A DNA stretch of 64,000 nucleotides from Arcobacter sp. F2176 (GTDB lineage Bacteria > Campylobacterota > Campylobacteria > Campylobacterales > Arcobacteraceae). The notes below the pieces were generated by a model. The model saw nothing but the letters and a program-made list of their open reading frames with translations, ran no database searches and was not told the DNA's origin. Positions 5,349 through 63,719 of the stretch are shown here, in pieces. The position numbers were made by a program, and so were the translations under genes. Every line of letters begins with the position of its first letter. The stretch's first letter is position 1. The stretch is taken from NCBI RefSeq assembly GCF_004116465.1, contig NZ_PDJV01000008.1:62001-126000 (forward strand), in the 5' to 3' direction.

Positions 5349-5358
5349 TTCTTCGCAC

Positions 5359-6771: not shown

Positions 6772-6772
6772 G

Positions 6773-8743
6773 TTATACCTCAAATCTTTTGATTTGTACA
6801 GGGATAATAAAATTATTAGAATAAGTTTTTATTCTAGCATATCCTACATCACTATTTTTCATAATACTATCACTAAAATCACCAAAATCATAATATTTTT
6901 CTAAAGCTCTTAATTCATCCCTATTATTAAGATGAGAAATAAACCAATTTTGTGTATTTTTTAAGATACTTGAAGAAATTGAACTAACTTCTTGAGTAGA
7001 GTAACTAATACCAAGTTTTAGTTTTGCCCCCTCTTTGGCTAATCTATTGTAAATACTTTTTAAATCTTTATCATCTTTTGGAAAGATATTATGTGCCTCT
7101 TCAAAATACATCTGTATAAATTCAGGTTCTATATCCTCTGTAAATTTATTCATGGATTCATTAAAAATATGAGTACAAAGTCTTGTGATATAAGTCTTTT
7201 GAATTTGTTCACTAGCACTTGATAAATCCACTAGAACAATTTTTCCTTCTCTTAACAGTTTATCTATCTCAATTTTATAATCACTATCCCCATTAGTTGA
7301 GTGCAATTTAGAATATTCTAATAAAATTTTATAACCGCCACCTCTATTGGCGAGGAGCATATTATATAAAGCTTCATAATCTCTATCCCAAACATCTAAA
7401 CTTGTACTTTTTGATTTTACAGTTTGCATTAATTCATAATTAGTTTCAAACCATTTATCTGCATCTTTAATAGAAATTCCATCATTACTAATAGAGGCTC
7501 CATCTATACCTTTAAAATAAAGTTTGTAATTTTGATTAACTTTAAAGCCAGCTCTGTATAAAATACATTTGTATAGAGCAATTTTTCTAAGCCTATTACT
7601 TTTATAAAAAGATTTTTCTTTTTCATTTTTTTCAATATCATCTTCATCATAAGTATCAAATAATTTAACATTTTTAAAAGCACTTACATATTGTTTATCT
7701 TGAAACATCAATTGTTCACATAAAAAATCAAAGGTAAATTCTAACATAGAGTTATTGTAAAAATTATACTGCAAAGCTCTAACATCTGCATATTTATCAA
7801 CTTTTTTAGGAGATACAGAATACCTGATAACTGTTCCATTTGTACTAAATTTATCATAAATAGAACCAACATCTTGTTTATTAGGAAAAGTATATTCACC
7901 GTTTATGTCAAAGACAATTTGCCCTATAGCTTTTTTAAAGTTTTCACTTTCAGTTGTTAGTTGCTTTGTTTTATTGTGCTCGATAAATTTTTTATTTAAA
8001 TCAACTATAGCACTCATTACTATTTTAATAGTATTTGATTTACCAGTTCTTGTCATACCAAAGAATGCTGTTCTTCTTGCAACGATATCATTTGGTTTTA
8101 TGACAACAGGAACTGAATAATCACCTTGATTTAATAAAGTATAGGATTTACTTGAAGAGTACCTAAGATCTCCAATTTTTACCTCTAGATTAATTTCATC
8201 AGTGTCTTTTTCATTTTTAGAGTTTACAATCTTTGCTAGTTGTTCATTAGAGGGTTTAAATACTTTATATTTGTGTGCCCCTAAAAAGTTTTCAAGGTCT
8301 GTTCCAAATTTTAACTCTTTTTCTTCAAAAAAGAAAGTACCTAAAATTCTACAGTTCAAACCTGAAAATTGATAATAATTTTTAGTATAAACATCAGGAG
8401 ACAAATTCTTTCTAGCTTCAGGTTGTTCCATATAAGTGTCAATCATAGCTTCAATTATCATACTTGATTGAGGAATTTTCGCAATATCTACAACTCTCAA
8501 TAAAATTCCCTCTTTAGAATATTTTGATAGTTCATTATTATAAATTGCAATTAAGAAGGTACCATGAGGGAGCCCTTTTACATTAAGTTTCCATTTGTCA
8601 TTAGTAAGAATTTTTGCATTATTGTAATCTACTTCGTATGTAAACCCAACAAATTTTTCATCATTATATTCAATTGATTCGAAAAAACCACCTGCTATTT
8701 CTGATTGAGAATTTTTAGATGTGAGATTATCAAGAAATTCCAT
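6773..8743 (-). CDS. HerA-like hexameric DNA translocase ATPase (DUF87 family)
   Basis: The 656-residue protein has an N-terminal barrel-like region ending in KIGDLRYSSS, then Walker A GMTRTGKS at about 229-236. A Walker B region (FIQMYFEEAHNIFP) follows, then a sensor/arginine-finger region (YSTQEVSSISSSILKNTQN). This is the FtsK/HerA arrangement. HerA forms rings that pump DNA and activate NurA-type nucleases. A strong Shine-Dalgarno (AAGGAGAA) sits just upstream, and the gene is 4 nt from the methyltransferase stop. Next to a methylase, it likely acts as the motor of a restriction-like or phage-exclusion complex. That role is inferred. Confidence 0.85.
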   Translation of the reverse strand: MEFLDNLTSKNSQSEIAGGFFESIEYNDEKFVGFTYEVDYNNAKILTNDKWKLNVKGLPHGTFLIAIYNNELSKYSKEGILLRVVDIAKIPQSSMIIEAMIDTYMEQPEARKNLSPDVYTKNYYQFSGLNCRILGTFFFEEKELKFGTDLENFLGAHKYKVFKPSNEQLAKIVNSKNEKDTDEINLEVKIGDLRYSSSKSYTLLNQGDYSVPVVIKPNDIVARRTAFFGMTRTGKSNTIKIVMSAIVDLNKKFIEHNKTKQLTTESENFKKAIGQIVFDINGEYTFPNKQDVGSIYDKFSTNGTVIRYSVSPKKVDKYADVRALQYNFYNNSMLEFTFDFLCEQLMFQDKQYVSAFKNVKLFDTYDEDDIEKNEKEKSFYKSNRLRKIALYKCILYRAGFKVNQNYKLYFKGIDGASISNDGISIKDADKWFETNYELMQTVKSKSTSLDVWDRDYEALYNMLLANRGGGYKILLEYSKLHSTNGDSDYKIEIDKLLREGKIVLVDLSSASEQIQKTYITRLCTHIFNESMNKFTEDIEPEFIQMYFEEAHNIFPKDDKDLKSIYNRLAKEGAKLKLGISYSTQEVSSISSSILKNTQNWFISHLNNRDELRALEKYYDFGDFSDSIMKNSDVGYARIKTYSNNFIIPVQIKRFEV

Positions 8744-48226: not shown

Positions 48227-49960
48227 ATGAACGAATTAATTAAATTTATACAAAGCATAGACTTGCAAAAAGAGGACCTTTTTGTACAATTGAAGTGTAA
48301 CTTAGAAGAGGGAAAAATACTTCAATATCTTACAAAAGAGTATATAAGTGGAAGAGATGCTTTGATGGTGATTGATATTTTATCAGAATTTTATGATGTA
48401 AAGAAATATGAGCATTTAGAGAAACTTGAAGTTATCAAATCATTACTTGAACTGGGTTGGTTAGTTCAAAACTCATTTACACCTGTAAAACTAAGTGAAT
48501 TATCAAAGTTGGAGTTACTAAATTCTAGTGTATCTTTAACTCCATCATTTTTAAAACTTATGGAAGATGGTTCTATGGATATGTCTTTACCTGAGATTAC
48601 AAAATATAGTGATCATTTAGAATATTTGCAAGACCAGTTTTTCAAAATAGATTTAGCACAAAAATTAAATGTAGTGAAACATAATTTTGATGAAAAATCT
48701 CCAAATATAAAAAGACTAAAATCAAAACTTACACTTTTGGAAAATAGAATAAAAGAAAGAGTAATAGCAACGCCACATGAAATCATGCTTGTAGGGTTTT
48801 TCAAAGAAAATGATCTAAATGAACAAGAGCAAATGATATTTATTGCTTTATTAAAAGAGGAGTATTCAGGTGGTGATGAATCAATAAGAGATATGAATTC
48901 ACTTATTGATTTGATTTCACATGATGATTATGAAAAAATCAAAAACAGAAGTTTATTAGAAGAGAGTTCAAAATTAGTTTCAACTGGACTTGTAGATTAT
49001 GATGAGATGTTAACTCCTTTTGGTGGGATAAATAGAAATTTTTATATTCCAGATGAAGTTTTATACAAAATCTCACACCCAGCAAAAAAGAAAACAAGAG
49101 CTTCAAAAATCAAAATTGATAATGTAATAAAAGAGCAAGATATGTTTGAACTAATATCTACTGATAAAACATTAGAAGATGTTGTTTTAAATCCAAAAAC
49201 AAAAGAAACATTAGATGCTCTTTTACAACAAGTTGACAAAAAAGTAATAAATAGACTTAAAGAGTGGGGGATAAAAGATAGAAAAAAAGGAATTGATGCA
49301 AGAATCATTTTCTATGGTATTGCAGGTACTGGTAAAACACTTACAGCTTTAGCTATGGCAAAATCACTTAAAAGACAAGTCTTAGCTTTTGACTGTTCTA
49401 AAATACTATCTATGTATGTGGGTGAGAGTGAAAAAAATGTTAGAAAAATCTTTGAAACATATGTTGATATAAGAGATAGAACAAAAAGTGAGCCAATACT
49501 ATTACTTAATGAAGCAGATCAATTCTTAAGTTCAAGGGTAACAGAATCAACAAGTGGTAGTGATAAGATGCATAACCAAATGCAAAATATCTTTTTAGAA
49601 CAAATTGAAAGATTTGATGGAATACTAATCGCTACAACAAACCTTTTAGAGAGTTTGGATAAAGCATTTTCAAGAAGATTTAATTATAAAATTGAGTTTG
49701 TAAAACCAAACAAAGAACAAAGGCTAGAACTTTGGAAAAAACTATTACCAGAAAATATCCCATTGGATAAAGACTTTGATATAAATAAAATATCAGAGAT
49801 AGAACTAACAGGTGGACAAATAGAGTTGGTGATTAAAAATACTGCTTATAAAGTGGCAGTTATGGATGAGCCAATTTTCAAAATGGAAGACTTCAAAGAA
49901 CATATTACAAAAGAGCAAAAATCTCAATTTGACTCTGAAAATAAGGTTGGTTTTTTTTAA
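48227..49960 (+). CDS. AAA+ family ATPase
   Basis: The protein has 577 residues. The N-terminal 300 residues are helical and unassigned. The C-terminal AAA+ module has Walker A GIAGTGKT and a Walker B region ILLLNEADQFL in which the usual Asp is Asn, as in several bacterial NEAD-type AAA proteins. Sensor 1 ATTN and the arginine-finger region AFSRRFNYKIEF follow. The sequence resembles FtsH/Cdc48-type ATPases without a protease domain. The function is unknown. Its stop is followed by a terminator. Confidence 0.8.
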   Translation: MNELIKFIQSIDLQKEDLFVQLKCNLEEGKILQYLTKEYISGRDALMVIDILSEFYDVKKYEHLEKLEVIKSLLELGWLVQNSFTPVKLSELSKLELLNSSVSLTPSFLKLMEDGSMDMSLPEITKYSDHLEYLQDQFFKIDLAQKLNVVKHNFDEKSPNIKRLKSKLTLLENRIKERVIATPHEIMLVGFFKENDLNEQEQMIFIALLKEEYSGGDESIRDMNSLIDLISHDDYEKIKNRSLLEESSKLVSTGLVDYDEMLTPFGGINRNFYIPDEVLYKISHPAKKKTRASKIKIDNVIKEQDMFELISTDKTLEDVVLNPKTKETLDALLQQVDKKVINRLKEWGIKDRKKGIDARIIFYGIAGTGKTLTALAMAKSLKRQVLAFDCSKILSMYVGESEKNVRKIFETYVDIRDRTKSEPILLLNEADQFLSSRVTESTSGSDKMHNQMQNIFLEQIERFDGILIATTNLLESLDKAFSRRFNYKIEFVKPNKEQRLELWKKLLPENIPLDKDFDINKISEIELTGGQIELVIKNTAYKVAVMDEPIFKMEDFKEHITKEQKSQFDSENKVGFF

Positions 49961-49973
49961 AAAGAGTTATCTT

Positions 49974-49997
49974 ATAAGTACTCTTTCGAGTACTTAT
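49974..49997. terminator. Bidirectional terminator between the AAA+ gene and the Sel1 lipoprotein gene
   Basis: A perfect 10-bp stem (ATAAGTACTC with GAGTACTTAT) and a TTTC loop lie between two convergent stops. They have a T-rich tail on the plus strand and an A/T-rich flank on the other. The stem overlaps the lipoprotein stop codon. Confidence 0.8.
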
Positions 49998-52384
49998 TTT
50001 AGGCCTTTTAATTTATCTTTTGCTTTCTTATAATTTGAATTTTTATACCACTCTTTTGCTTTTTTAATATCTTTTTTGATATCACCTTTTCCATATTGAT
50101 ACACTAATCCAAGATTGTATGCAGCTATATCTTTTTGCGATGTATTTTTTTTGTAAGCTCTTTCATAATACTCAATAGCTTTATTAATATCTTTTTTCCC
50201 ACCTAGACCTTTTTCGTATAAAACTCCCAAATCAATAAGAGATTCACCATAATTATTACTTGCAGCATAAGAAAAATATTTTCTTGCATTTTCATATTCT
50301 TTTCTTTTTTTATAATAATTACCTAAAAAATTAGAAACACTGTCATTTGAATAAGCTACTCGTTTATAATATTCAACTGCCTTTTCAAGATCTTTTTTAA
50401 CTCCAAAACCTTTTTCATAAAATTTTGCTAATAAAAAGGCACTATCTTTGTCATGTTCTTCATATCCCAATTTTAAGTATTTTAATGCTTCATTATAATC
50501 AAGTCTTATTATTGGTAAAGTTTTATCATCATGATAATATAGATTTGCAAGTCTGTAATATCCAGATTTATATCCTTTATCTATTGCTATTGAATAATTC
50601 TCTTTTGCTTTTTCTAAGTTAACTTCTACGCCTTTTCCATAGTTGTAAAGCCAAGCAAGTGTTGCATAGTCTCTAGCTTCTCCTCGTAGTTTTATTAGTT
50701 GATTAAGGTATTTAATTCCTTCTTTATAATCTATATATTTTCCATTTCCACAAGTATCACAAATATAGAAAATAGTTAATTTTTCAATAGACCTAATATC
50801 ACCTTTTAGTGCATATTTTTTATATATTTCCATTGCTTTTAGTGGTTGTTTCTCATATCCATATGGAGGGTATGTATAAAGTGATATTAAATCTTTTCTT
50901 GCTTCTTCATCTCCCTTATTTGTAAGTTCTTCTAGTATTTTGACTGATTCATCATATTTGTTTACCTTACTATCTAAATAAAGTTTGGCAAGGCTTCTTT
51001 TACTAAATATGTCACCATAAGAAGATGCTAAAGTGTAGTATTTTATAGCTTCTTGATAATCATAAGCACGATAGCTTTCTTTTGCAAGATTTCTTAGTGT
51101 TAAAATATTTTTGTAATCTTGAGTATCTGATTTTTTTAATTCTTCTAAAAAGTCTGTAAAATATTTCTTACGGTAACTTAATGTTATTTTTTTAATTATT
51201 TCTTTTTTAAGTTCTTTATCATCACTTTTTATAGCATACTCTTGCCACTTTTTTATTAGTTGAAACTCTTCTGGGTCAAAATTATATTTTGATTGAGTTC
51301 TTGTTGTGATTTCAATTATTGCATCAATATTACCTTTTTCTGCAAGTTCTTCAAAAAGTTCATTTGCAGCATTATTTTTCCCATGGGTTTTATAATATTT
51401 TGCTAATACCAGTTTCCCTTTATCCTTTTGAAGTAGTTTTTCTTTTAACTTTACATACTCTTTTATATACTCTTGTGATTTTGCGTATATTCTTAATAAT
51501 TCGTTCGAAGCATCTTCATTAGACAAATCAGAAGCTTTTTCTAAGTAGTTTATAGCCGTTTCTTTATCTATATTTAGACCATCTTTTTCTCTTGAAAAGC
51601 TAAAGACTCTATAAATGTCATAATAAGCTTGAGCATTTGAATGATCATACTTTATAACCTCTTCATATACTCTAATTGCATCATTTCTATAATAATATTG
51701 TCTTCTAAGTAGTTGTGCAGTTGTAATCATATTTTCTATATTTTTAGAAGCAATTACTTCATTTACAAAAGTTGAGACCTTTTCTTTCTCAGTATCTTTT
51801 TTATTATATATCAATGATCTAAAATATTTCATTTTTACTATAAAAGGTTCTTCATAACCTTTGTTTTTCATTGTTTCTAAAATTTTATCTGCTGGTTTAC
51901 TATTGTATTTTTTTGAAAATTCAGTGTACAAATCTGACAATTGTTCTTTTGATAATTTATCAATTATTTTATTTAATAATTTATTTGCATCTTTACTTGC
52001 ATATCCTTTTAAATATATTTTTATAAGAAGCACTGAAGACTTTATGTCTCCTAAGTCAGATGTTTTAATTAGTAAATTAGTAGCTTTTTCTTTTCCATTT
52101 ATAAACATATCTGCATATTTATAATAGATTTCTGCAATATTTGTTTGCCCTTGGGTATCTTTGCTTTTTTCTATAAGGGGATACCATTTATTAAAATAAT
52201 ATAACCCTTCTTTTGTCTCTGGGAACTTGTAATATTTTACTAAGTCTAACATTGCATCAATATTATTATTGTTTGCTTTTTGGATTAAGATTTCTTTTGA
52301 TTCTATAGTTCTATTTTCTGGATTAATATTTGAACAAGCTACAAAAAATAGAGCAATAAAAAGTAACGATGATAGTAGTTTCAT
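49994..52384 (-). CDS. Sel1-repeat (TPR-like) lipoprotein
   Basis: The 796-residue protein starts with a lipoprotein signal ending in FVACSN (lipidated Cys at about 17). The rest is a superhelix of many Sel1-like/TPR units, most recognisable in the C-terminal half (for example LAKFYEKGFGVKKDLEKAVEYYKR, given here as YEKGFGVKKD, and LGVLYEKGLGGKKD). Such proteins act as scaffolds for cell-envelope complexes. The partner is unknown. It is divergent from the nuo operon. Confidence 0.88.
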   Translation of the reverse strand: MKLLSSLLFIALFFVACSNINPENRTIESKEILIQKANNNNIDAMLDLVKYYKFPETKEGLYYFNKWYPLIEKSKDTQGQTNIAEIYYKYADMFINGKEKATNLLIKTSDLGDIKSSVLLIKIYLKGYASKDANKLLNKIIDKLSKEQLSDLYTEFSKKYNSKPADKILETMKNKGYEEPFIVKMKYFRSLIYNKKDTEKEKVSTFVNEVIASKNIENMITTAQLLRRQYYYRNDAIRVYEEVIKYDHSNAQAYYDIYRVFSFSREKDGLNIDKETAINYLEKASDLSNEDASNELLRIYAKSQEYIKEYVKLKEKLLQKDKGKLVLAKYYKTHGKNNAANELFEELAEKGNIDAIIEITTRTQSKYNFDPEEFQLIKKWQEYAIKSDDKELKKEIIKKITLSYRKKYFTDFLEELKKSDTQDYKNILTLRNLAKESYRAYDYQEAIKYYTLASSYGDIFSKRSLAKLYLDSKVNKYDESVKILEELTNKGDEEARKDLISLYTYPPYGYEKQPLKAMEIYKKYALKGDIRSIEKLTIFYICDTCGNGKYIDYKEGIKYLNQLIKLRGEARDYATLAWLYNYGKGVEVNLEKAKENYSIAIDKGYKSGYYRLANLYYHDDKTLPIIRLDYNEALKYLKLGYEEHDKDSAFLLAKFYEKGFGVKKDLEKAVEYYKRVAYSNDSVSNFLGNYYKKRKEYENARKYFSYAASNNYGESLIDLGVLYEKGLGGKKDINKAIEYYERAYKKNTSQKDIAAYNLGLVYQYGKGDIKKDIKKAKEWYKNSNYKKAKDKLKGLK

Positions 52385-52771: not shown

Positions 52772-53161
52772 ATGACTCATATGGATTTCTCCCATCCGTA
52801 TTTTGGTGTTTTTATCATGTTTGTTTTAACCTTTGGTGCCTTTATTGCAACAGTGTGGTTAGCAAGGCTTGTAAGTAGAAAAATGGCAAGACTTGATACA
52901 GAAAAACTAAAAACTACATACTATGAATGTGGACCAGAAGTTACAAAACAGCCAAATACAATCTCTGTGCAATTTTATCTTATGGCTTTATTATTTATTT
53001 TATTTGATATAGAGATTATCTTCATGTTTCCATGGGCAGTTGATTTTAAAGTTCTAGGTTGGTTTGGATTTGTGGAAATGATTCTATTTATTGTTTTATT
53101 AACTATTGGCTTTATTTATGCATGGAAAAAAGGAGCGCTTGAATGGCACAGCATAAAATAA
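52772..53161 (+). CDS. nuoA: NADH-quinone oxidoreductase subunit A
   Basis: This small membrane subunit of complex I has 129 residues and three helices. The conserved YYECGPEV loop, with the Cys near the quinone site, and [14 protein letters not shown] are present. It is the first gene of the operon, and its end overlaps nuoB by 19 bp. Confidence 0.97.
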
Positions 53162-53652
53162 AATATTTTCAAGATGGAGGAGCACCTATTGCTCTTTCAA
53201 CTGTTGACAAAATTGTAAACTTCGGACGAAGTAACTCTTTATGGCCTTTAACTTATGGTTTGGCATGTTGTGCAATAGAAATGATGGCATCTGGTGCTTC
53301 AAGATACGATTTTGACAGATTTGGAACTATATTTAGAGCAAGTCCAAGACAAGCAGATGTACTTATTGTTGCTGGAACTTTGACAAAAAAGCATGCTGAA
53401 TATATGAGAAGACTATATGACCAAATGCCAGATCCTAAATGGGTTATTTCTATGGGGTCATGTGCAAATACAGGTGGAATGTTTAATACCTATGCCACTG
53501 TTCAAGGAGTAGATAGAGTAATACCTGTGGATATTTATCTTCCTGGATGTGCTCCAAGACCTGAAACCTTACAATATGCACTTATGATGCTTCAAAAGAA
53601 AATAAGAAGAGAATCTTCATTTTTATCTAAAAAGAAAAAGAGGTTAGTATAA
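53143..53652 (+). CDS. nuoB: NADH-quinone oxidoreductase subunit B
   Basis: NuoB carries the terminal N2 [4Fe-4S] cluster next to the quinone. The 169-residue protein has the ligand motif [11 protein letters not shown], then [12 protein letters not shown] and [10 protein letters not shown]. Its stop overlaps the ATG of nuoC. It uses a start inside nuoA. Confidence 0.98.
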
Positions 53653-54473
53653 TGAGAAAATATACTCCTAAAGATAATGTACAAAAAAAATCATACTACA
53701 CTGATAGATTTTTTGTCTCTCCTATGGTTCCTAGAAGTGATCCCAGAAGTGATGAAATCTATGAAAAAGATATAGAAAAAATAAGTTCAAAAGTTCAAAT
53801 ACTAGAAGCTTATGTTGAAAATAAAGAGTTAGTAATATATATAAACCCAAAAGATAATGTAACTACACTAAAACTTTTAAAAGAAGAGTTAGAATATGAC
53901 ATGCTTATGGAACTTTCTGCAATAGATTATTTATCTGCTAGAAGTGGTTTTGAAATCTTTTATGAAATGCTTTCTATGAGTAAACATAAAAGAATGAGAG
54001 TTAAGTGTTTTATTGAAGAAAAACAAACTATAGAGTCAGTTTACTCTTTATTTAAAATGGCAAATTGGTCAGAGCGTGAAATGTACGATATGTATGGTGT
54101 AAAAGTAATAAATCATCCAAATATGAAAAGAATACTTATGCCTGATGATTGGTATGACCACCCTTTAAGAAAGACATATCCTCTTCATGGTGATGAAGTT
54201 GCACAATGGTACGAAGTAGATCATATTTTTGGAAAAGAAGCAAGAGAAGAAATAGGTCCAGAAGAGAGAGACGATGCAGCTATTGATAGATATGACACTA
54301 CAAGATTTTCAAGATTGGGTCATGAAGTTCCTTTTGGAACACCAATAGTTGAGGGAGAAGAAAAAGAAACCCCACTTGCTTATACAGAAGAGGGTGGAGT
54401 TAAACTTTTCGGAAAACGACTTGTTAAAGATTTTGATGAGAAAAAATCAAAAATATTAGATGAGAGAAGGTAG
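53652..54473 (+). CDS. nuoC: NADH-quinone oxidoreductase subunit C
   Basis: NuoC is a hydrophilic connecting subunit of the quinone module. It has 273 residues with WSEREMYDMYGV and LMPDDWYDHPLRKTYPL, the family signatures. A charged N-terminal extension and a C-terminal tail rich in Glu/Lys make it longer than many homologues, as in other Campylobacterota. It is separate from nuoD, which follows 3 bp later. Confidence 0.95.
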   Translation: MRKYTPKDNVQKKSYYTDRFFVSPMVPRSDPRSDEIYEKDIEKISSKVQILEAYVENKELVIYINPKDNVTTLKLLKEELEYDMLMELSAIDYLSARSGFEIFYEMLSMSKHKRMRVKCFIEEKQTIESVYSLFKMANWSEREMYDMYGVKVINHPNMKRILMPDDWYDHPLRKTYPLHGDEVAQWYEVDHIFGKEAREEIGPEERDDAAIDRYDTTRFSRLGHEVPFGTPIVEGEEKETPLAYTEEGGVKLFGKRLVKDFDEKKSKILDERR

Positions 54474-54476
54474 ATA

Positions 54477-55703
54477 ATGCAACAAACCAATAGACTAAAA
54501 CCTTTTTTTGAAAATATAAACTTTGAGCGAGAAGATAATACTATGGTGGTCAATTTTGGACCACAACATCCATCTGCTCACGGACAAATGAGACTTATTT
54601 TAGAACTGCAAGGTGAAGAGATAGTAAAAGCTAGGCCTCATATTGGATACTTACATAGAGGTATGGAAAAAATGGGTGAGAATATGATTTATAATGAATT
54701 CATGCCCACAACTGATAGAATGGATTATATAGCCTCTACTTCAAATAATTATGGATTTGCCCTAGCAGTTGAGAAGCTATTAGGAATAGAAGCACCAAGA
54801 AGAGCAGAGATAATAAGAACTATGTTAATAGAGCTAAATAGAATAATCTCTCATCTATTTTGGCTTGCAACTCATGCTTTAGATGTGGGAGCAATGTCTG
54901 TATTTTTATATGCCTTTAGAGAAAGAGAGTTTGCTTTAGATTTGATAGAAGACTATTGTGGAGCAAGACTTACTCATAGTGCAGTTAGAATAGGAGGAGT
55001 ACCTTTAGATTTACCTGATAATTGGTGTGAAGATTTAGAGAAGTATTTAGACATCTTAGCTGTGGAAATACCAAAATATGAAGCACTTTTAACAGATAAT
55101 AGAATCTGGAGAATGAGACTTGAAAATGTTGGAGTAATAAATAATGAAACAGCAAAATCTTGGGGATGTACAGGACCAATATTGAGAGCTACTGGTCAAA
55201 AATGGGATTTGCGAAAAGAGATGCCTTATGGTATCTATCCAGAGCTTGATTTTGATATACCAATAGCAACTGCTGGGGATAGTTTTGCAAGATATCAAGT
55301 GCATATGCAAGAGATGAGAGAATCATCAAAAATATTAAGACAATTAGTCCCTATGTATAAAGCTTCTCCTTCACAACTTATGGCAAATGAGCCTGAATAT
55401 ATCTCAGCTACAAAAGAGGATATTATGACTCAAAATTATGCCTTGATGCAACACTTTGTTTTAGTAACTCAAGGTATGAGACCACCTCGTGGTGAAGTTT
55501 ATGTGGCAACAGAATCACCAAAAGGTGAGTTAGGATTTATGATTGTAAGTGATGGAAGTCCTTATGCTTATAAGATGAAAGTAAGAGCTCCTTCTTTTTG
55601 GCATACATCTATTTTGGAAGAAATATTAGTTGGTCACCAATTAGCTGACGTTGTTACTATTATTGGTAACTTGAACGTAGTTTTTGGTGAGATTGATAGA
55701 TAA
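54477..55703 (+). CDS. nuoD: NADH-quinone oxidoreductase subunit D
   Basis: NuoD forms the quinone-binding cavity with NuoB. It is 408 residues long with [24 protein letters not shown], the DRMDYI region and [17 protein letters not shown]. All expected motifs are present. Confidence 0.98.
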
Positions 55704-55714
55704 GGAGTAGATAT

Positions 55715-56011
55715 ATGAAAAGATATGATTTAAGACCATTAAAAGATGATTTTTATTCTAGAATGCTAGAACTTATGGATAAAGATATAAAAGATGGTGA
55801 AAATGCAATATTTCTTTTTGAAATAGGAGATTTTTCACATATCCAAAAATCAGCTGATGTTATTTATGAAGCTGGATATACTTTAATGAACTCTTTAAAA
55901 TTCAATGAAGTAGATTGGACAATAGTTGTAAAAAAAGTAAAACCAGAAATAAAACCGTTTGAAGAAGAACCAAAAAAAGAAAAAGATAAAGAAGATGAAG
56001 ATGATGAATAA
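55715..56011 (+). CDS. Small Campylobacterota-type NuoE-position protein
   Basis: The 98-residue protein sits where nuoE normally lies. It lacks the four-Cys [2Fe-2S] motif of true NuoE and so cannot be the 24-kDa NADH-module subunit. It has a Tyr/Asp-rich N-terminus and a very acidic/basic C-terminal tail (KEKDKEDEDDE). This matches the short protein seen at this place in Helicobacter and Campylobacter nuo operons. It probably helps couple a non-NADH donor such as flavodoxin. Confidence 0.8.
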   Translation: MKRYDLRPLKDDFYSRMLELMDKDIKDGENAIFLFEIGDFSHIQKSADVIYEAGYTLMNSLKFNEVDWTIVVKKVKPEIKPFEEEPKKEKDKEDEDDE

Positions 56012-56810
56012 AAATACAAATTTAGAAATAGTTTCAAAAAGTGATTACATTATATGTTTAGGTTCAATGATTTCAAGAGATAACGAAGAAGTTAAAGATT
56101 TGATTTTAGAAGCTATTGCAAAAAATGAAGCAGAATTTATTTATATGCATCCTATAGATGATATTGATTTAAAACTTTTCTATACACAGTTTTTAAAGTA
56201 TGAAGTTGGAAGTGAAGAGGGAGTTTTAGCTCTACTTTTAGATTTTTTTACAAAAAATAGAAGTGCTTCTTTAGAAAAATATTTAAAAGACTTAGATCAT
56301 GGTTATATCTCCGCTGAAAGTAGTGCCGGGGAAGAAGAGTTTGAAGAGATGGTTAAAAGATCTTTAGATAAAAAAAACAAAACTATAATTATAGGGCAAG
56401 ATTTATTTACCCATGAAAGAGTAGACAATCTATACTCTATGCTAAAAGCTTTTGAAGAGTTTACTGATTTTAATGTAGTTATATTAACAGATGATGAAAT
56501 AACTTCAAATGAAACTCTCGAAGATGTTGAAGAGTTAAGTTCATATAATGGAACAGTAATTTATAAATATAACACAGATGAAGATGATAGTTTTGTATAT
56601 GGAAGTGAATCATTTGCTAGAGTTGCAAAAGTGCAAGATAAAGATGATATCTTTTTAAATTATGGAAAAGATTCTGTTCAAAAAACTTTTATTTTAGATA
56701 AAAATTTACAAGGTACTATTGCAATTTGTGGTGTAAATGAAGAAGATAGTAGTTTCTTATCTCGAGGCTATAGGTATAAACAAGTAAAAATTGAAAAGGT
56801 TGAAGAATGA
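55995..56810 (+). CDS. NuoF-position protein, paralogous to the C-terminal region of NuoG
   Basis: The protein lacks the FMN/NADH-binding Gly-rich motifs and the [4Fe-4S] ligands of real NuoF. Stretches align in order with the C-terminal half of NuoG encoded next door: IICLGSMISRD with VISVGSYLKSD; EEGVLALLLDFF with EESILYFILDRF; TIIIGQDLFTH with TLILGEDLITH; FNVVILTDD with FKVVIIPTS; and FLSRGYRYKQVKIEKV with LFDGYRFTSANVKKV. The likely start is one of the ATGs at 55995-56004, overlapping the previous stop; an earlier frame opening at 55959 would add a Lys-rich run. Its role is probably structural or in electron entry from a non-NADH donor. Confidence 0.8.
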   Translation: MKMMNKNTNLEIVSKSDYIICLGSMISRDNEEVKDLILEAIAKNEAEFIYMHPIDDIDLKLFYTQFLKYEVGSEEGVLALLLDFFTKNRSASLEKYLKDLDHGYISAESSAGEEEFEEMVKRSLDKKNKTIIIGQDLFTHERVDNLYSMLKAFEEFTDFNVVILTDDEITSNETLEDVEELSSYNGTVIYKYNTDEDDSFVYGSESFARVAKVQDKDDIFLNYGKDSVQKTFILDKNLQGTIAICGVNEEDSSFLSRGYRYKQVKIEKVEE

Positions 56811-59281
56811 GTGACTTGATTACTTTAACAATTGATGGCAAAGAGTTAAAGGCAAAAGAGGGTGAAAGTGTACTAAATATTGCTAGAGCAAATGGAATAT
56901 TTATACCTGCGATTTGTTATTTAACTAGATGTTCACCAACATTAGCCTGTAGATTATGTTTAGTTGAATCTGATGGAAAACAAATCTATGCCTGTAATTC
57001 AAAAGCAAAAGATGGTATGAATATCACAACTACAACTGATAATATAGAAAAAGAAAGAAGAGCAGTAATGGAAGTTTATGATGTAAATCATCCATTACAA
57101 TGTGGAGTTTGTGATCAAAGTGGTGATTGTGAACTTCAAAACTATACTCTTTATCAAAAAGTAGATTCTCAAAGCTATGCCATAAGAGATGTAAACAGAC
57201 CAAGGGAACATTGGGGAGTTATGAATTATGACCCAGGACTTTGTATTGTTTGTGAGAAGTGCGTAACAGTATGTAAAGATATGATTGGTTCAAATGCTTT
57301 ATCAACTGTAAAAAGAGGAGCTGACGCTCTTCCTAGTGTGTTTAAAGCAAGTATGCCAAAAGATGCATATGCTATGTGGAATAAACTAAATAAATCACTT
57401 ATAGGATTTGAAGAAGATAAGTGTGTTGATTGTGGAGAGTGTATCTCTGTTTGTCCCGTGGGAGCACTTGTATCAAATGATTTCCAATATAAATCAAACT
57501 CTTGGGAGCTTACAAAAATACCAGCAGCAAATCCTCACTCAAGTGATTGTGCCTTGCTTTATTATGAAGTGAAACATGAGTCAATAGTAAATCATAATGT
57601 GCAAAAAATCTATAGGGTTACAAATGAACATCATTATGCTTCAATAAATGGCGCTGCTAGATTTGGATATGACTTTGAAAATAGAGTTGAAAGCCAAGAT
57701 GAGGTAGCTTTTGATAAAGCAATTGAAGCATTTAAAAAAGCTGATACTATTAAGTTTAATTCATTTATTACAAATGAAGAGGCTTTTATTTTACAAAAAT
57801 TAAAAGAGAAGTTTGCATATAAACTTATAAATAATGATGCCTTATCTTATAAAAAATTTCTTGATGCATATTCAAGTGTTAGTGGTAAATCACTTTATAG
57901 TGCAGATTTAAAAGATATACATAACTCTAACTTTGTAATTTCTGTTGGCTCTTATTTAAAATCTGATTCTCCAAATACAAAGTATGCTTTTAATAACTCA
58001 GTTGTTATGAATAAGGGAGCTGGATTATATTTTCATCCAATGGGTGATCCAGTAATGGAACAATGTGGTAAAAGGGGAAAAACTACAGAGTTTATTTATC
58101 ATAATCCACTAGCAGAAGAGTCTATTTTATACTTTATTTTAGATAGATTTGGTGAAAACTTGCCAGAAAATATTCAAACAACTCTTAACTCATATAAAGA
58201 GACAAGAGTTAAATCTATTACAGAGATGATAAAAGAAAAAGTAGTATCTATTGTAAAAGATGAAGAGAGTGGTGAAGAAAAAGAAGTAACTAAGATGGTT
58301 CCTAAAAAAGTTACAAAAGAAGTTGAGTATGAATATACAAGATTACTTGATGAGATAAATGCAGATGCAACACTACTTGAAACTATTGAAGCTATGAAAG
58401 ATAAAAAAGATAGCTACACTTTGATTTTAGGTGAAGATTTAATCACTCATCCAAATTCACAAAATCTTGCAAAATTAGCAGCCTTAGTAGAAAAATATAC
58501 GCAATTTAAAGTTGTGATTATCCCTACTTCTACAAACACTTTAGGGGTTAGTTTGATTTGTGATTTAGATGAAGTTGAAGGAAGTTATTGCGTAGGATAC
58601 AATGTAAAAGCAGATTTCCAACTATCAGCTTTAGGAGATGGAGATTTAGATATGCCAGCTCTTAACCAACAAGAAGGAACATTTGCAAATATAGATAAAA
58701 GAGTTGTTCCTACAAATGCAGCTTTACCTTATAAGGGTTATGTATTAAATGATATTGCAAATACCTTACTTGGAACAGAAGTTGAACACACTATTTTGTA
58801 TACAAAATCTTTACCAGTAGATAAAGGTTTCCAAGCTCTTGAATTTGATAGTTTAACTAACTACTTTGCAAATGATTGGAGTGAACATAGAGGTTATATT
58901 TTAAATACCCTTGATGTGGATTCAAGTGATGAAATAGCCAAAAAACAAAATGCAAGTTTTGAAGTTAATTCTTCAGAAATAACTATTTATAAAGCAAATC
59001 CAATCAATCAATTCAATGAATTCACAGCAATAGCCCATGAGTTTAAAGATAATTTAGAAAGTGGAATGTTTGCAAATGAGTCATTTTTAGAAGAGTTGGA
59101 ATTAAGTGTTGGAGATAAAGTACTATTAAGTGCAAATGGAAGTGAAATAGAAGTAAATGTTTATTTTGATAATCAAGTATCAGGGGAAATTGCATATGTA
59201 TCAAGCTTTGAAAAACAGTTAAATACAAAAGCTCTTTTTGATGGATATAGATTTACAAGTGCAAATGTGAAAAAGGTGTAA
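56807..59281 (+). CDS. nuoG: NADH-quinone oxidoreductase subunit G
   Basis: The protein has 824 residues. N-terminal [2Fe-2S] ligands are C37, C42/C48, C51 and C63. A His-Cys3 [4Fe-4S] site is in HPLQCGVCDQSGDC (about 95-108). Two more [4Fe-4S] sites are CIVCEKCVTVC (146-156) and CVDCGECISVC (206-216). The C-terminal molybdopterin-like part is diverged, with a Lys/Glu-rich insertion around 475-510. It overlaps the preceding gene by 4 bp and is followed by nuoH after 1 bp. Confidence 0.93.
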   Translation: MSDLITLTIDGKELKAKEGESVLNIARANGIFIPAICYLTRCSPTLACRLCLVESDGKQIYACNSKAKDGMNITTTTDNIEKERRAVMEVYDVNHPLQCGVCDQSGDCELQNYTLYQKVDSQSYAIRDVNRPREHWGVMNYDPGLCIVCEKCVTVCKDMIGSNALSTVKRGADALPSVFKASMPKDAYAMWNKLNKSLIGFEEDKCVDCGECISVCPVGALVSNDFQYKSNSWELTKIPAANPHSSDCALLYYEVKHESIVNHNVQKIYRVTNEHHYASINGAARFGYDFENRVESQDEVAFDKAIEAFKKADTIKFNSFITNEEAFILQKLKEKFAYKLINNDALSYKKFLDAYSSVSGKSLYSADLKDIHNSNFVISVGSYLKSDSPNTKYAFNNSVVMNKGAGLYFHPMGDPVMEQCGKRGKTTEFIYHNPLAEESILYFILDRFGENLPENIQTTLNSYKETRVKSITEMIKEKVVSIVKDEESGEEKEVTKMVPKKVTKEVEYEYTRLLDEINADATLLETIEAMKDKKDSYTLILGEDLITHPNSQNLAKLAALVEKYTQFKVVIIPTSTNTLGVSLICDLDEVEGSYCVGYNVKADFQLSALGDGDLDMPALNQQEGTFANIDKRVVPTNAALPYKGYVLNDIANTLLGTEVEHTILYTKSLPVDKGFQALEFDSLTNYFANDWSEHRGYILNTLDVDSSDEIAKKQNASFEVNSSEITIYKANPINQFNEFTAIAHEFKDNLESGMFANESFLEELELSVGDKVLLSANGSEIEVNVYFDNQVSGEIAYVSSFEKQLNTKALFDGYRFTSANVKKV

Positions 59282-59282
59282 T

Positions 59283-60290
59283 ATGGAGACAAGTATTATA
59301 ATTGAGACAATCGTTAAAGCTGTAGTTATATTAGCTGTATTTTCAGCAATTGCTGGGTTTACAACTTATATTGAACGAAAAATATTAGCTTTTATGCAAA
59401 GAAGATTGGGACCTACAAATGTTGGACCTTATGGATTATTACAAATTGTTTGTGATGGGATAAAACTATTTACAAAAGAAGATTTTATTCCTCAAAATGC
59501 TGTAAAACCAATCTTTATGATTGCTCCAATTATAACAGCAGCCACAGCCTTTATTGCAATGACCGCAGTTCCCTTTTTCCCAGAGTTTGAAATCTTTGGA
59601 TATACGATTAGACCAATTATTGCAGATATCAATGTGGGTGTTTTATTTGTAATGGGTGTGGCTTCAGTTGGACTTTATGGGCCTTTATTAGCTGGTATGA
59701 GTAGTGGAAATAAATGGGCACTATTAGGAGGGGCAAGAACTGCCATTCAACTTTTATCTTATGAAGTTGTATCTGGACTTGCTCTTTTAGCACCTCTTAT
59801 GTTAGTGGGTTCTTTATCTTTAATTGATATAAATGAGTATCAAAGTGCAGGATTTACTTCTTGGATTATTTGGACTCAACCCTTGGCTTTTATTCTTTTT
59901 GTGATGGCAGGATTTGCAGAGACAAACAGAACACCATTTGATTTACTTGAACATGAAGCTGAAATTGTTGCAGGTTATGCAACAGAGTATTCTGGAATGA
60001 GATGGGGAATGTTTTTTATAGGTGAATATGCAAATTTATTTACAATCTCATTTTTGATTTCACTGATTTTTCTTGGTGGGTACAATGATTTATGGTTTAT
60101 TCCAGGTGGATTAGCGATTATTTTAAAAGTATCATTTTTAATATTTTTCTTCTTATGGACAAGAGCTTCTTGGCCACATGTCAGACCAGATCAATTGATG
60201 TGGTTATGTTGGAAAATATTAATGCCACTAGCAGTAGTTAATATTTTACTTACTGGTGCATTTGTAATGATAGTTGGGAGTATAGGATGA
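59283..60290 (+). CDS. nuoH: NADH-quinone oxidoreductase subunit H
   Basis: NuoH is the membrane subunit joining the quinone cavity to the proton-pumping arm. It has 335 residues and about eight helices. Seen are YIERKILAFMQRRLGPTNVG, the loop FAETNRTPFDLLEHEAEIV, and RASWPHVRPDQLMWLCWK. All are hallmark motifs. It overlaps nuoI by 4 bp. Confidence 0.98.
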   Translation: METSIIIETIVKAVVILAVFSAIAGFTTYIERKILAFMQRRLGPTNVGPYGLLQIVCDGIKLFTKEDFIPQNAVKPIFMIAPIITAATAFIAMTAVPFFPEFEIFGYTIRPIIADINVGVLFVMGVASVGLYGPLLAGMSSGNKWALLGGARTAIQLLSYEVVSGLALLAPLMLVGSLSLIDINEYQSAGFTSWIIWTQPLAFILFVMAGFAETNRTPFDLLEHEAEIVAGYATEYSGMRWGMFFIGEYANLFTISFLISLIFLGGYNDLWFIPGGLAIILKVSFLIFFFLWTRASWPHVRPDQLMWLCWKILMPLAVVNILLTGAFVMIVGSIG

Positions 60291-60910
60291 ATTTAGAAGA
60301 TTTAAAAAATAGAAATATAAGCGAGCATGATTATATAAATATTCAAGATAATAGTTCTCCTGAAACTCCTTGGCAAGAGTTTAAACAAATATTTAAAAGA
60401 TCAATAAAAGGGGAACTTTTTACTGGACTAAGAGTTACTTTTAATATGATGAGAGAAGCTTTATTTAATAAACAAATGCACACAGTGCAATATCCTGCTG
60501 AAAAACTACCAATAGGACCTAGATATAGAGCTGTACATAAACTACTTGGTCTTTTAGAATCAGGTGAAAACAGATGTATTGGATGTGGACTTTGTGAAAA
60601 AATTTGTATCTCTGATTGTATTAGAATGGATACACGAATTGATGAAAACTCTAGAAAAGAGGTTTTAGAATATACAATAAACTTCGGTAGATGTATTTTC
60701 TGTGGATATTGTGCTGAGGTTTGTCCAGAACTTGCCATTGTTCATGGGGGAAGATATGAAAATGCAGGAGAACAACGAGCGCACTTTGTTGTAAAAGATG
60801 ATTTATTAACTCCACTTGATAAATTAGCACAACAACAAGAGTATCCAGGTTTTGGTGCAGTATCTCCTGATGCTGATGAAAAAATCAAAAAAACTCCACT
60901 AGAGTATTAG
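60287..60910 (+). CDS. nuoI: NADH-quinone oxidoreductase subunit I
   Basis: NuoI carries two [4Fe-4S] clusters (N6a/N6b) in the connecting arm. The protein has 207 residues with CIGCGLCEKICISDC and CIFCGYCAEVCPE. An extended N-terminus of about 35 residues precedes the core. It is followed by nuoJ after 5 bp. Confidence 0.97.
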   Translation: MNLEDLKNRNISEHDYINIQDNSSPETPWQEFKQIFKRSIKGELFTGLRVTFNMMREALFNKQMHTVQYPAEKLPIGPRYRAVHKLLGLLESGENRCIGCGLCEKICISDCIRMDTRIDENSRKEVLEYTINFGRCIFCGYCAEVCPELAIVHGGRYENAGEQRAHFVVKDDLLTPLDKLAQQQEYPGFGAVSPDADEKIKKTPLEY

Positions 60911-60915
60911 GAGAT

Positions 60916-61491
60916 ATGATGTTTGAAATAGTAGCTTTTTATTTGTTTGCAATCTTGACAGTATTTATGTTTGGAATAACAGTATTTACAAATAATGCCT
61001 TATATGCACTAAGTTCTCTGGCAGCTGGTATGATTTTTATCTCTGCTTTTTTCTTTTTGTTAAATGCAGATTTTTTAGGAATCGTACAAATTGTAGTTTA
61101 TACAGGTGCTGTTATGGCTCTTTATGCTTTTGGAATGATGTTTTTTGATTCTATGAGTGAAGTAAAAGAAAAAATTCAAAACCCAAGATTAGTATTTTTA
61201 TTTAGTGGATTAGCAGCACTTATTACGGTTGTAGCTTTTCTTTCTCCAATTATATCAACTAATATAATTTCTGATTATGCAGTTCATCCAGAGTATGGAA
61301 ATACTCAAGATGTTGGGGTTATTTTATTTACAAAATTTTTAGTTCCCTTTGAAGTTGCAGCTGTAATGTTATTAGTTGCAATGATAGGTGGAATTATACT
61401 TGCTGGTAAAAAGATGGATGTATCATATTCAGAACTTAGTGAAGATGAAATAGATGCCCTTGAATCATCAAATGAAAAGGATAGCAAATGA
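60916..61491 (+). CDS. nuoJ: NADH-quinone oxidoreductase subunit J
   Basis: NuoJ is a membrane subunit with five helices over 191 residues. VQIVVYTGAVMALYAFGMMF contains the conserved pi-bulge helix residues. The C-terminus is a short acidic tail. It overlaps nuoK by 4 bp. Confidence 0.96.
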   Translation: MMFEIVAFYLFAILTVFMFGITVFTNNALYALSSLAAGMIFISAFFFLLNADFLGIVQIVVYTGAVMALYAFGMMFFDSMSEVKEKIQNPRLVFLFSGLAALITVVAFLSPIISTNIISDYAVHPEYGNTQDVGVILFTKFLVPFEVAAVMLLVAMIGGIILAGKKMDVSYSELSEDEIDALESSNEKDSK

Positions 61492-61787
61492 GTTTAAATG
61501 AGTATTTAATACTTTCATCACTTCTATTTTGTTTAGGTTTAGTAGGTGTGATTAGAAGAAAAAATCTTTTAATGCTATTTTTTTCAACAGAGATAATGTT
61601 AAATGCTGTGAATATCGGACTTGCTGCTGTTTCACATTTCCATCAAGATTTGACAGGTCAAATGTTTGCATTTTTTATAATAGCAATTGCTGCAAGTGAA
61701 GTTGCTGTTGGTTTGGGATTATTAATTTTATTATATAAAAGAAAAAATTCTATCAACTTAGATACTTTACAAAATATGGAGGGGTAA
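61488..61787 (+). CDS. nuoK: NADH-quinone oxidoreductase subunit K
   Basis: NuoK is a 99-residue membrane subunit with three helices. LMLFFSTEIMLNAVNIG and IAIAASEVAVGLGLLILLYK carry the two conserved membrane Glu residues of the proton path. The stop directly abuts the nuoL start. Confidence 0.97.
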   Translation: MSLNEYLILSSLLFCLGLVGVIRRKNLLMLFFSTEIMLNAVNIGLAAVSHFHQDLTGQMFAFFIIAIAASEVAVGLGLLILLYKRKNSINLDTLQNMEG

Positions 61788-63719
61788 ATGGAAAAATTTG
61801 TATATATTGCGTTATTTGCTCCTTTAGTTGGTTCAATAGTTGCCTCACTATTTTCAATGAAACCTAAAACTTTGTTTACTGGGATTTTCACAAGTTTGAT
61901 GTTAGCTGTTTCTATGGTTGCTTCATTGATTTTACTTTTTAATATTATTTCATCAGATGAGATAATAAGTGTAAAACTTATGGATTGGATAGTAATAGGA
62001 AATCTTAGTATTCCTTTTGGTTTTGTAGCAGATGCAGTTAGTGCTACGATGATGGTAGTCGTAACTATTGTTTCAACTATGGTTCATATTCATTCAATTG
62101 GTTATATGGATCATGACAAATCATTTAATAGATATTTTGCTTGGTTATCAGCTTTTGTTTTTTCTATGATGATATTAGTTATGAGTGATAACTTTGCTGG
62201 ATTGTTCATTGGATGGGAAGGGGTTGGTCTTTGTTCTTGGGGATTGATTGGATTTTGGTATCACAAAGAAGATAAAGCAAAATCAAAAGATGTATATACT
62301 TCACCATATTCTACTCTTTCACCTTACTCTTCAATCTCACCTTCATATGCAGCAAATGAAGCTTTTATTATGAATAGAGTTGCAGATTTAGGTATGTTAG
62401 TTGGAATATTTTTGATTTACTGGAATCTAGGCTCTCTTCAATATGATGTCGTATTTGCAAATGTTGGAAACTTGTCCCATGGAATTATTATAGCAATTGC
62501 AATTTTCCTTTTTATTGGTGCTATGGGTAAATCAGCACAATTTCCATTTAATCAATGGCTTGCAAATGCAATGGAAGGTCCAACACCAGTATCTGCACTA
62601 ATTCATGCAGCGACTATGGTAACAGCTGGGGTTTATTTACTTGTGCGAGCAAATGTAATTTTTACAGCTGTTCCAGAAGTTGGTTATGGTATCGCTTGTC
62701 TTGGTGCTTTTGTTGCAGTATTTGCAGCATCTCAAGCAATGGTAGCTTCTAATATTAAAAAAATCATTGCATTTTCCACTTTGTCTCAACTTGGATATAT
62801 GTTTGTAGCAGCTGGTCTTGGAGCTTATTGGGTGGCATTATTCCATTTAGCAACCCATGCCTTTTTTAAATCAGTTCTTTTCTTAGGAGCTGGAAATGTT
62901 ATGCATGCTTTAAATGATGAGATAAATATAAAAAATATGGGTGGACTATATAAGCACATGAAAGGTACGGCTATTATTATGATAATAGCTTCTGCCGCTC
63001 TTTCAGGTATTTGGCCACTTGCAGGATTTTATTCTAAAGATTTAATCTTAGAAGTTGCCTTTGGTGCTCATGAATATATTTTATGGACTATTCTTTGGGT
63101 AACAGCTGGCTTGACTGCTTTTTATTCATTTAGACTTGTTATGTATGTATTTTTTGGTGAAGAGAGATTTAAAAAGCTTGGTTATCATCCACATGAAACT
63201 TATAGCTTTGTAATAGCAGCTATGAGCCCACTTGCAATACTTGCAATTGTTACAGGTTGGTTTAAAGATTCTTTTGAAGAGATGATAATAAAAGTATTAC
63301 CAGGATTAAATGTTCATGTTCATGAAGAAGTTGTACTTGTACTTATTATAGTTACAAGTGCCATGGCAATCGCTGGAGTCTTATTTGCAACACTTAGGTA
63401 TGTAAGAGCAGGTACTTATTTTAGTGAAAATGTAAAAGATAGCTTCTTTTATAAACTATTAGCAAATCAATATTTCATGCCTCATTTTTTAGAGTATGTA
63501 ATAACAAAACCATATTTGGCAATGAGTAAATTTGCATGGAAATATATTGATCTTAAAATTATTGATTTTATTGTTGATGGTATTGGAAAACTGGTTTATG
63601 CCTCAGGTAAAGGGGTTAGACCTCTTCAATCAAGTAATTTATCGACACTATTAAAAGTGATGGTTTATGGGTTTGTTTTATTATTAGTTCTAAGTGTAGC
63701 GCTTGGGTTTTTAAAGTAA
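61788..63719 (+). CDS. nuoL: NADH-quinone oxidoreductase subunit L
   Basis: NuoL is an antiporter-like proton-pumping subunit of 643 residues with about 15-16 helices. Seen are GWEGVGLCSWGLIGFW, KSAQFPFNQWLANAMEGP, TPVSALIHAATMVTAGVYL and LATHAFFKSVLFLGAG. The lysine and glutamate network residues are present. A Ser/Tyr-rich insertion (TSPYSTLSPYSSISPSYA) lies after the third motif region. nuoM begins 13 bp later. Confidence 0.98.
   Translation: MEKFVYIALFAPLVGSIVASLFSMKPKTLFTGIFTSLMLAVSMVASLILLFNIISSDEIISVKLMDWIVIGNLSIPFGFVADAVSATMMVVVTIVSTMVHIHSIGYMDHDKSFNRYFAWLSAFVFSMMILVMSDNFAGLFIGWEGVGLCSWGLIGFWYHKEDKAKSKDVYTSPYSTLSPYSSISPSYAANEAFIMNRVADLGMLVGIFLIYWNLGSLQYDVVFANVGNLSHGIIIAIAIFLFIGAMGKSAQFPFNQWLANAMEGPTPVSALIHAATMVTAGVYLLVRANVIFTAVPEVGYGIACLGAFVAVFAASQAMVASNIKKIIAFSTLSQLGYMFVAAGLGAYWVALFHLATHAFFKSVLFLGAGNVMHALNDEINIKNMGGLYKHMKGTAIIMIIASAALSGIWPLAGFYSKDLILEVAFGAHEYILWTILWVTAGLTAFYSFRLVMYVFFGEERFKKLGYHPHETYSFVIAAMSPLAILAIVTGWFKDSFEEMIIKVLPGLNVHVHEEVVLVLIIVTSAMAIAGVLFATLRYVRAGTYFSENVKDSFFYKLLANQYFMPHFLEYVITKPYLAMSKFAWKYIDLKIIDFIVDGIGKLVYASGKGVRPLQSSNLSTLLKVMVYGFVLLLVLSVALGFLK

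Follow-up and report, generated by a model that had tools for sequence, protein, structure and literature searches.

A NuoY-type complex I subunit in Campylobacterales as a probable, repeatedly truncated remnant of a second NuoG

NuoY (Cj1574c in Campylobacter jejuni, HP1265 in Helicobacter pylori) has been reported as required for flavodoxin-driven complex I, and Cj1574c and Cj1575c are together reported to mediate the passage of electrons into the complex from flavodoxin (PMC4178425, PMC6682613). Cj1575c is reported to be essential in C. jejuni and C. coli (PMC10077673), the H. pylori NuoX protein HP1264 to bind flavin mononucleotide (FMN; PMC6269979) and HP1265 to be one of the rapidly diverging H. 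pylori genes (PMC3561388). Here we analyse a protein, called Y below, that is encoded in a complex I operon within a 64,000-nucleotide stretch of DNA (the window) from Arcobacter sp. F2176. The window is part of contig 8 of a 3.27-Mb Campylobacterales genome, the closest named relatives of which are Arcobacteraceae. Y shares with NuoY the place between nuoX and nuoG, a similar size and the lack of a domain for binding NADH (reduced nicotinamide adenine dinucleotide), and is probably its orthologue. We consider it probable that Y is what is left of a full-length second NuoG (NuoG1), which lost its iron-sulphur (Fe-S) half and an internal segment of roughly 113 residues several times, along with an adjacent flavoprotein, and that Y acts as a docking scaffold and has a second role outside this complex.

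NuoY is already known as a subunit; this analysis adds its probable derivation from NuoG1, the recurrence of the truncation and the existence of orphans. Our literature search, which left most subscription papers outside its coverage, returned no report of a derivation of NuoY from NuoG, of repeated truncation or of orphan NuoY. The comparison covered genomes of two groups (f10 and f13), presumably relatives of Campylobacter and Helicobacter, in which a Y homologue occupies the corresponding operon position. Complex I-like enzymes with 11 subunits, which are without NuoEFG, likewise have no NADH module (PMC11238625), but the operon in the window keeps NuoG, with NuoX and Y. Sulfurospirillum has been reported to carry two types of complex I within a single genome (PMC11238625, PMC4794192). 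The operon in the window (52772-63719, + strand) has the order nuoABCD, nuoX, Y, nuoG, nuoHIJKL:

52772..53161, +, NuoA
53143..53652, +, NuoB
53652..54473, +, NuoC
54477..55703, +, NuoD
55715..56011, +, NuoX in the NuoE position (Pfam PF16514; relative of the H. pylori nuclear magnetic resonance structure 2LXR)
55995..56810, +, Y (NuoY/Cj1574-type) in the NuoF position, 271 residues, two molybdopterin-oxidoreductase-fold domains without Fe-S ligands
56807..59281, +, NuoG (NuoG2 type), 824 residues
56807..57706, +, Fe-S half of NuoG, about residues 1-300, without counterpart in Y
57899..58531, +, NuoG segment of about residues 365-575, homologous to Y residues 7-168
58916..59278, +, C-terminal NuoG segment of about residues 704-824, homologous to Y residues 170-271
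59283..63719, +, NuoH, NuoI, NuoJ, NuoK and NuoL, in order

The frame of Y shares 17 bases with nuoX and 4 with nuoG, and its start is uncertain since further in-frame ATG codons lie at 56001 and 56004.

Y and the C-terminal half of NuoG

Y and the C-terminal half of NuoG are homologues, with a similarity far beyond chance. The original prediction had placed the two proteins within 55995-59281 and taken Y for a paralogue of that half, and was correct on both points. BLASTP of Y against the neighbouring NuoG yielded a single significant alignment (Y 7-234 with NuoG 365-640, 22% identity, E = 1e-12), and profiles of 46 Y-type and 31 NuoG2 proteins aligned by hhalign with a probability of 99.85 (E = 1.3e-30, 263 columns). 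That the two align in order up to their C-terminal ends, as was also claimed, follows from the profile match, which is collinear (Y 7-271 on NuoG 365-824), whereas BLASTP gave the C-termini only as a separate, insignificant piece (E = 1.4). The NCBIfam NuoG model PRK08493 matched Y in three stretches (E = 8.9e-27), below its full-length cut-off, and Pfam PF00384 remained below its cut-off as well (E = 0.018). Neither PF01512, the FMN/NADH-binding 51K domain, nor any sequence in the PDB matched Y at E values up to 10, and solved structures are connected to it by fold comparison alone.

The AlphaFold2 model of Y was confident (mean predicted local distance difference test score, pLDDT, 93.4; predicted template modelling score 0.90) and that of NuoG was good (pLDDT 87.2). 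Using VIA-align, the Y model superposed on residues 359-907 of Escherichia coli NuoG (Z = 17.6, 245 residues, 3.5 A) and on residues 152-690 of formate dehydrogenase H (Z = 22.2, 260 residues, 3.1 A), and the model of the window NuoG matched the same fold families along its entire length. We take residues 136-335 and 541-715 of formate dehydrogenase H to be its domains III and IV, in which case Y would correspond to those two domains, with domains I and II missing. Used by itself, Foldseek matched several formate dehydrogenases to Y across about 530 columns, at a root-mean-square deviation of 11-13 A; these alignments were set aside in favour of those from VIA-align. Y and NuoG (the 75-kDa subunit) thus have the domains of the C-terminal half in common, in the same order and with the same predicted fold, but Y is without the Fe-S half, the stretch that separates the two homologous segments in NuoG, and the cluster ligands of an electron-carrying NuoG, its N-terminal half being gone.

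Two operon architectures and a full-length NuoG1

A search with Y as the query covered 149 Campylobacterales genomes, of which 141 matched, NuoG matches included. The best match in many genomes was a frame of about 750 residues and no short frame. We annotated 80 named loci, those most similar to Y, plus further loci, and recognised two architectures. Architecture A consists of nuoABCD, nuoX, a flavoprotein of ~670 residues, NuoG1 of ~750 residues, NuoG2 of ~820 residues and nuoHIJKL, while architecture B, that of the window, has nuoABCD, nuoX, Y, NuoG2 and nuoHIJKL. Among 103 classed loci, other nuo genes accompanied Y in 60 and NuoG1 in 35, and none lay nearby in five loci with Y and in three called NuoG1, one of which (L132) is in fact an orphan Y; these counts are not frequencies, because the 80 named loci were chosen for their similarity to Y. 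An assembly artefact was rejected as the source of the difference, both architectures being found in single-contig genomes (A in G096; B in G070 and G131). Named isolates with architecture B include Malaciobacter halophilus and Poseidonibacter; names of metagenome-assembled genomes (MAGs) that fit their operons poorly ('Helicobacter cetorum' SulCav, 'Aliarcobacter butzleri' AS10) were not used as taxonomy.

The flavoprotein of architecture A contains PF10589 (the 4Fe-4S tail of NuoF), Fer4_20 and Pyr_redox_2 domains, resembles NADPH-dependent subunits of the GltD type through its FAD/NAD(P)H domain and does not show PF01512. It lies in the place of NuoF (4921-6930 in locus L065, and the equivalent position in other A-type loci). 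Architecture A is possibly a complex I driven by NAD(P)H with two NuoG subunits. The same kinds of modules are combined in StnC of the Stn transhydrogenase, which joins a NuoG domain to a GltD-like NADPH domain (PMC10482914), but in architecture A they are encoded separately, within a complex I operon, and the tail of NuoF is added. The original prediction had NuoF lost and replaced by Y. It is right in that the operon in the window has no NADH-binding NuoF domain, the only PF01512 match of the genome lying elsewhere, but Y is not a direct replacement, as the longer operon has the flavoprotein in that place.

NuoG1 retains a complete Fe-S half, and it is to NuoG1 that Y is closest: hhalign gave E = 6.2e-75 and 42% identity, with Y corresponding to NuoG1 residues 365-537 and about 651-773 (L065 numbering). 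The proposal that Y is a duplicate of a domain of the neighbouring subunit is not supported, the profile match to that NuoG being far weaker. The duplication concerned the whole of NuoG, and Y is what was left after the Fe-S half, the internal segment and the preceding flavoprotein had been lost. Locus L112 is intermediate, with a NuoG1 of 483 residues in which the internal segment is present and the Fe-S half gone; the flavoprotein is gone too.

We also compared NuoG1 and NuoG2 from the same operon in 31 operons. Identities in the Y-homologous segments were 0.28, 0.41 and 0.26, compared to 0.47, 0.51 and 0.40 between NuoG1 proteins. For residues 300-365 and 537-651 the same-operon identity was 0.56 each, in excess of the 0.51 and 0.49 found among NuoG1 proteins of other operons, as expected if gene conversion homogenises tandem copies. 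We read this excess as a likely sign of gene conversion between the NuoG1 and NuoG2 paralogues, and the lost internal stretch looks as if it had been homogenised with NuoG2. In the Fe-S half, NuoG1 and NuoG2 were 0.49-0.51 identical. Y is therefore the portion in which NuoG1 diverges most from NuoG2. Residues E70, D101 and E108 (Y numbering) are invariant across Y and NuoG1, and G103, E114 and E115 are almost so; NuoG2 mostly differs at these positions, with E108 as the exception.

Both NuoG types have extra conserved cysteines, at 178, 205, 208 and 211 of the L065 NuoG1, where E. coli NuoG has none; their pattern suggests an added 4Fe-4S cluster. Cysteines at 241-280 of the same protein, several of them aligned to E. 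coli ones, are kept in NuoG1 and gone in most NuoG2. Two A-type operons (L100, 2712-4976, and L026) have a single NuoG directly before NuoH, and that of L100 is NuoG1-like at its front and partly NuoG2-like at its end, as if tandem copies had fused. One MAG (G118) has two B-type operons of different descent (L146 and L147), one of which may be foreign or contamination.

Trees of Y and of its operon, and orphan copies

A tree built from 115 sequences of the Y, NuoG1 and NuoG2 types did not place all Y in one group. Y of Sulfuricurvum fell within Sulfuricurvum NuoG1 (97*) and Y of L057 within Arcobacteraceae NuoG1 (95*, 99*). A reduced set of 94 rows excluded E. coli NuoG, the canonical NuoG of this genome (L115), the cut-off NuoG of L002, about half of the NuoG2 rows and three long-branched Y (L120, L121 and L133). 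With this set, a single clade of all Y was rejected (log-likelihood difference 97.6, p = 0.0046), and the starred branches forced four changes. Separate trees from the two halves of Y concurred for Sulfuricurvum and L057, and neither Y is therefore a patchwork.

The backbone of the operon was represented by NuoB, C, D, H and I; the 83 loci that had four or more of these five genes were thinned to 47 at 88% identity (1388 columns). The backbone tree needed six architecture changes, none of 200 bootstrap trees needed only one, and a single clade of B was rejected (p = 2.9e-7). Mergers of Arcobacteraceae B with L057, L063 or L083, of Sulfurospirillum-type B with L063, and of L063 with L083 were each rejected at p = 2e-6 or less, while the merger of Campylobacter-/Helicobacter-type with Sulfurospirillum-type B was rejected more weakly (p = 0.02). 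L057 and L083 each rest on one genome. The closest pair across the two architectures is L063 (B) with L098 (A). Their DNA identity is 87.7% as far as the nuoX stop, 84.4% from near the end of Y onward and about 70% for the Y piece against NuoG1.

Copies of Y also occur where the rest of the operon is lost. In six Aliarcobacter-type genomes, including A. vitoriensis, NuoX is absent and the sole NuoD belongs to a canonical complex I with fused C and D subunits, and Y is kept. In G008 and A. vitoriensis, the flanks of which were compared, Y lies exactly between the gene for an AAA ATPase and mqnD-like and murB genes; the former is the upstream flank of the nuo operon and the latter two follow nuoN in operon-bearing relatives. 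The other four have the same neighbours as judged by eye. In the window the ATPase gene is:

48227..49960, +, AAA ATPase carrying a winged-helix domain, flanks the nuo operon on its upstream side

It lies upstream of nuoA in 39 of the 52 loci with at least 3.5 kb of upstream sequence, and its product is a possible assembly factor. A review states that A. butzleri has nuoEF in place of nuoXY (PMC6682613), a statement that the orphan Y in relatives of this species qualifies.

In a sample of the phylum, NuoX was present in 79 of 101 genomes. Among 15 genomes that lack NuoX or come from the gaps in its distribution, 12 had Y at E = 1e-3 or better. Y was not significant in the remaining three (G157, G156 and G163) or in G166, G168 and G171, the best E value among these six, which belong to two related genera, being 0.09. 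No match to PF00346 (NuoD) was obtained in G060 and G073. The orphan Y of these two genomes and of G012, G030 and G152 adjoins one family of TPR proteins, with DUF7494 and TPR domains in the three that were examined. We take these neighbours to be PflA; in C. jejuni and H. pylori its gene presumably comes after nuoN.

The orphans occupy about five places on the tree, four of them forced by starred branches. The frames were intact in all that were read through (six from Aliarcobacter and 11 more); in G012 the genome search had flagged one stop within the match, and the frame of 209 residues is itself open. We estimated the ratio of nonsynonymous to synonymous substitutions (dN/dS) as simple Nei-Gojobori values for these AT-rich genes. 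Six orphan pairs outside Aliarcobacter gave 0.08, 0.08, 0.15, 0.21, 0.23 and 0.30, two more pairs being saturated, and Y from operons gave 0.16-0.35. Y probably has a role without this complex, since purifying selection persists where the rest of the operon is lost.

Alternative explanations, the role of Y and its genomic setting

That Y arose once, by partial duplication of the neighbouring NuoG, and then spread, with NuoG1 unrelated to its origin, is barely credible. The BLASTP and profile similarity to that NuoG and the clustering of most Campylobacter-, Helicobacter- and Sulfurospirillum-type Y would fit such an event, but Y fits NuoG1 much better and has motifs specific to it (E70, D101, G103, E115 and neighbours) that are absent in NuoG2, and one Y clade is rejected and B is scattered on the backbone tree, so that this explanation is largely refuted. 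It is also unlikely that Y was made from NuoG1 only once or twice and that homologous recombination at nuoX and nuoG2 then carried it into other lineages, as a cassette that displaced the flavoprotein and NuoG1 in their operons. The internal cut lies at an almost identical place in every Y, one MAG carries two B operons and the Y gene tree gives fewer origins than the backbone tree, all of which a cassette would account for. Sulfuricurvum Y, however, sits inside Sulfuricurvum NuoG1 with the whole of Y and with either half, its merger with Arcobacteraceae Y is rejected on the Y gene (p = 6e-4), and its N-terminal cut differs, about 20 more NuoG1 residues being kept at its start than in Arcobacteraceae Y. 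We likewise do not think it probable that orphan Y is a decaying chance relic of operon deletion. The faster Aliarcobacter orphans (dN/dS up to 0.77) and the NuoX-less genomes without significant Y speak for decay, but the frames are intact, dN/dS is low in the six computable pairs and the gene was retained in about five separate lineages. It is very unlikely that Y itself carries electrons by a flavin or other non-cysteine cofactor: Cj1574c was described as mediating electron transfer from flavodoxin (PMC4178425), but Y has neither a conserved cysteine nor a PF01512 match, and the reported FMN binder is NuoX (PMC6269979).

Several observations weigh against repeated truncation of NuoG1 followed by a second role. 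Y and the neighbouring NuoG are only 22% identical in this genome. On the Y gene tree, a clade of Arcobacteraceae Y with L057 was not rejected (p = 0.245), L083 was unstable, and Campylobacter-, Helicobacter- and Sulfurospirillum-type Y clustered together, so that the Y gene on its own points to fewer origins than the backbone does; the mismatch could stem from movement of Y by itself into further operons. Because the Y gene leaves the first of these clades unrejected and L083 unstable, we put the number of truncations at probably three to six, where six takes the backbone at face value and allows losses only. Sulfuricurvum Y evolved fast, as its DNA is only ~70% identical to its NuoG1 source compared to 84-88% for the flanks. 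Aliarcobacter orphans gave dN/dS values of 0.23 and 0.39 in the two closest pairs and 0.39-0.77 in the remaining ones, and are partly relaxed. PF01568 (molybdopterin enzymes) and PF01558 (POR-type oxidoreductases) each occurred in all 15 genomes tested, irrespective of Y, and neither family explains an orphan Y, because genomes without Y keep both; these two tests revealed no partner.

None of the cysteine columns in an alignment of 66 Y exceeded 30%, and Y of the window has only C21 and C245. Y is unable to hold Fe-S clusters as NuoG does because it has no conserved cysteine, and is likeliest to be a redox-inert docking or scaffold subunit. In the mechanism that we propose, reduced flavodoxin would hand its electrons to the FMN-binding NuoX, directly to the exposed Fe-S chain of NuoG2, or to both, and Y would hold NuoX, NuoG2 and the donor together through putative contacts. 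In architecture A, the flavoprotein may feed in electrons from NAD(P)H, like the GltD part of StnC. In the change from A to B, the flavoprotein would have been lost together with the internal segment and Fe-S half of NuoG1, leaving the two most NuoG1-specific domains, and this two-domain module probably has a second role outside this complex. We see even chances that the NuoY module has a conserved job independent of the rest of this complex I, having begun as the NuoG1-specific part of a complex with two NuoG, been freed repeatedly and, in about five lineages, outlasted the operon under purifying selection; it would serve low-potential electron carriers, or a different redox partner, as a general docking or assembly protein.

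On this account, the origin of flavodoxin-driven complex I in Campylobacter, Helicobacter and their relatives would become a stepwise path with living examples, from two NuoG and a flavoprotein through an intermediate such as L112 to architecture B, reached several times. NuoY would be expected to be a docking part without an Fe-S cofactor, and with the orphan copies, gene deletion offers a direct test of whether a respiratory-chain subunit has a second function.

Canonical NuoE and NuoF are retained in the second complex I cluster of the genome (L115; contig 2 of G000, 262000-281900), which encodes NuoA, NuoB, a NuoCD fusion, NuoE, NuoF, a short NuoG of 478 residues and NuoH-L. Between nuoF and nuoG of this cluster lies a citrate-synthase-like gene (12405-13688 of L115, - strand), recognised by eye. 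In the window, the interval between the AAA ATPase gene and nuoA holds a gene (49994-52384, - strand) for a lipoprotein-like protein of 796 residues, with many Sel1-like repeats as judged by eye.

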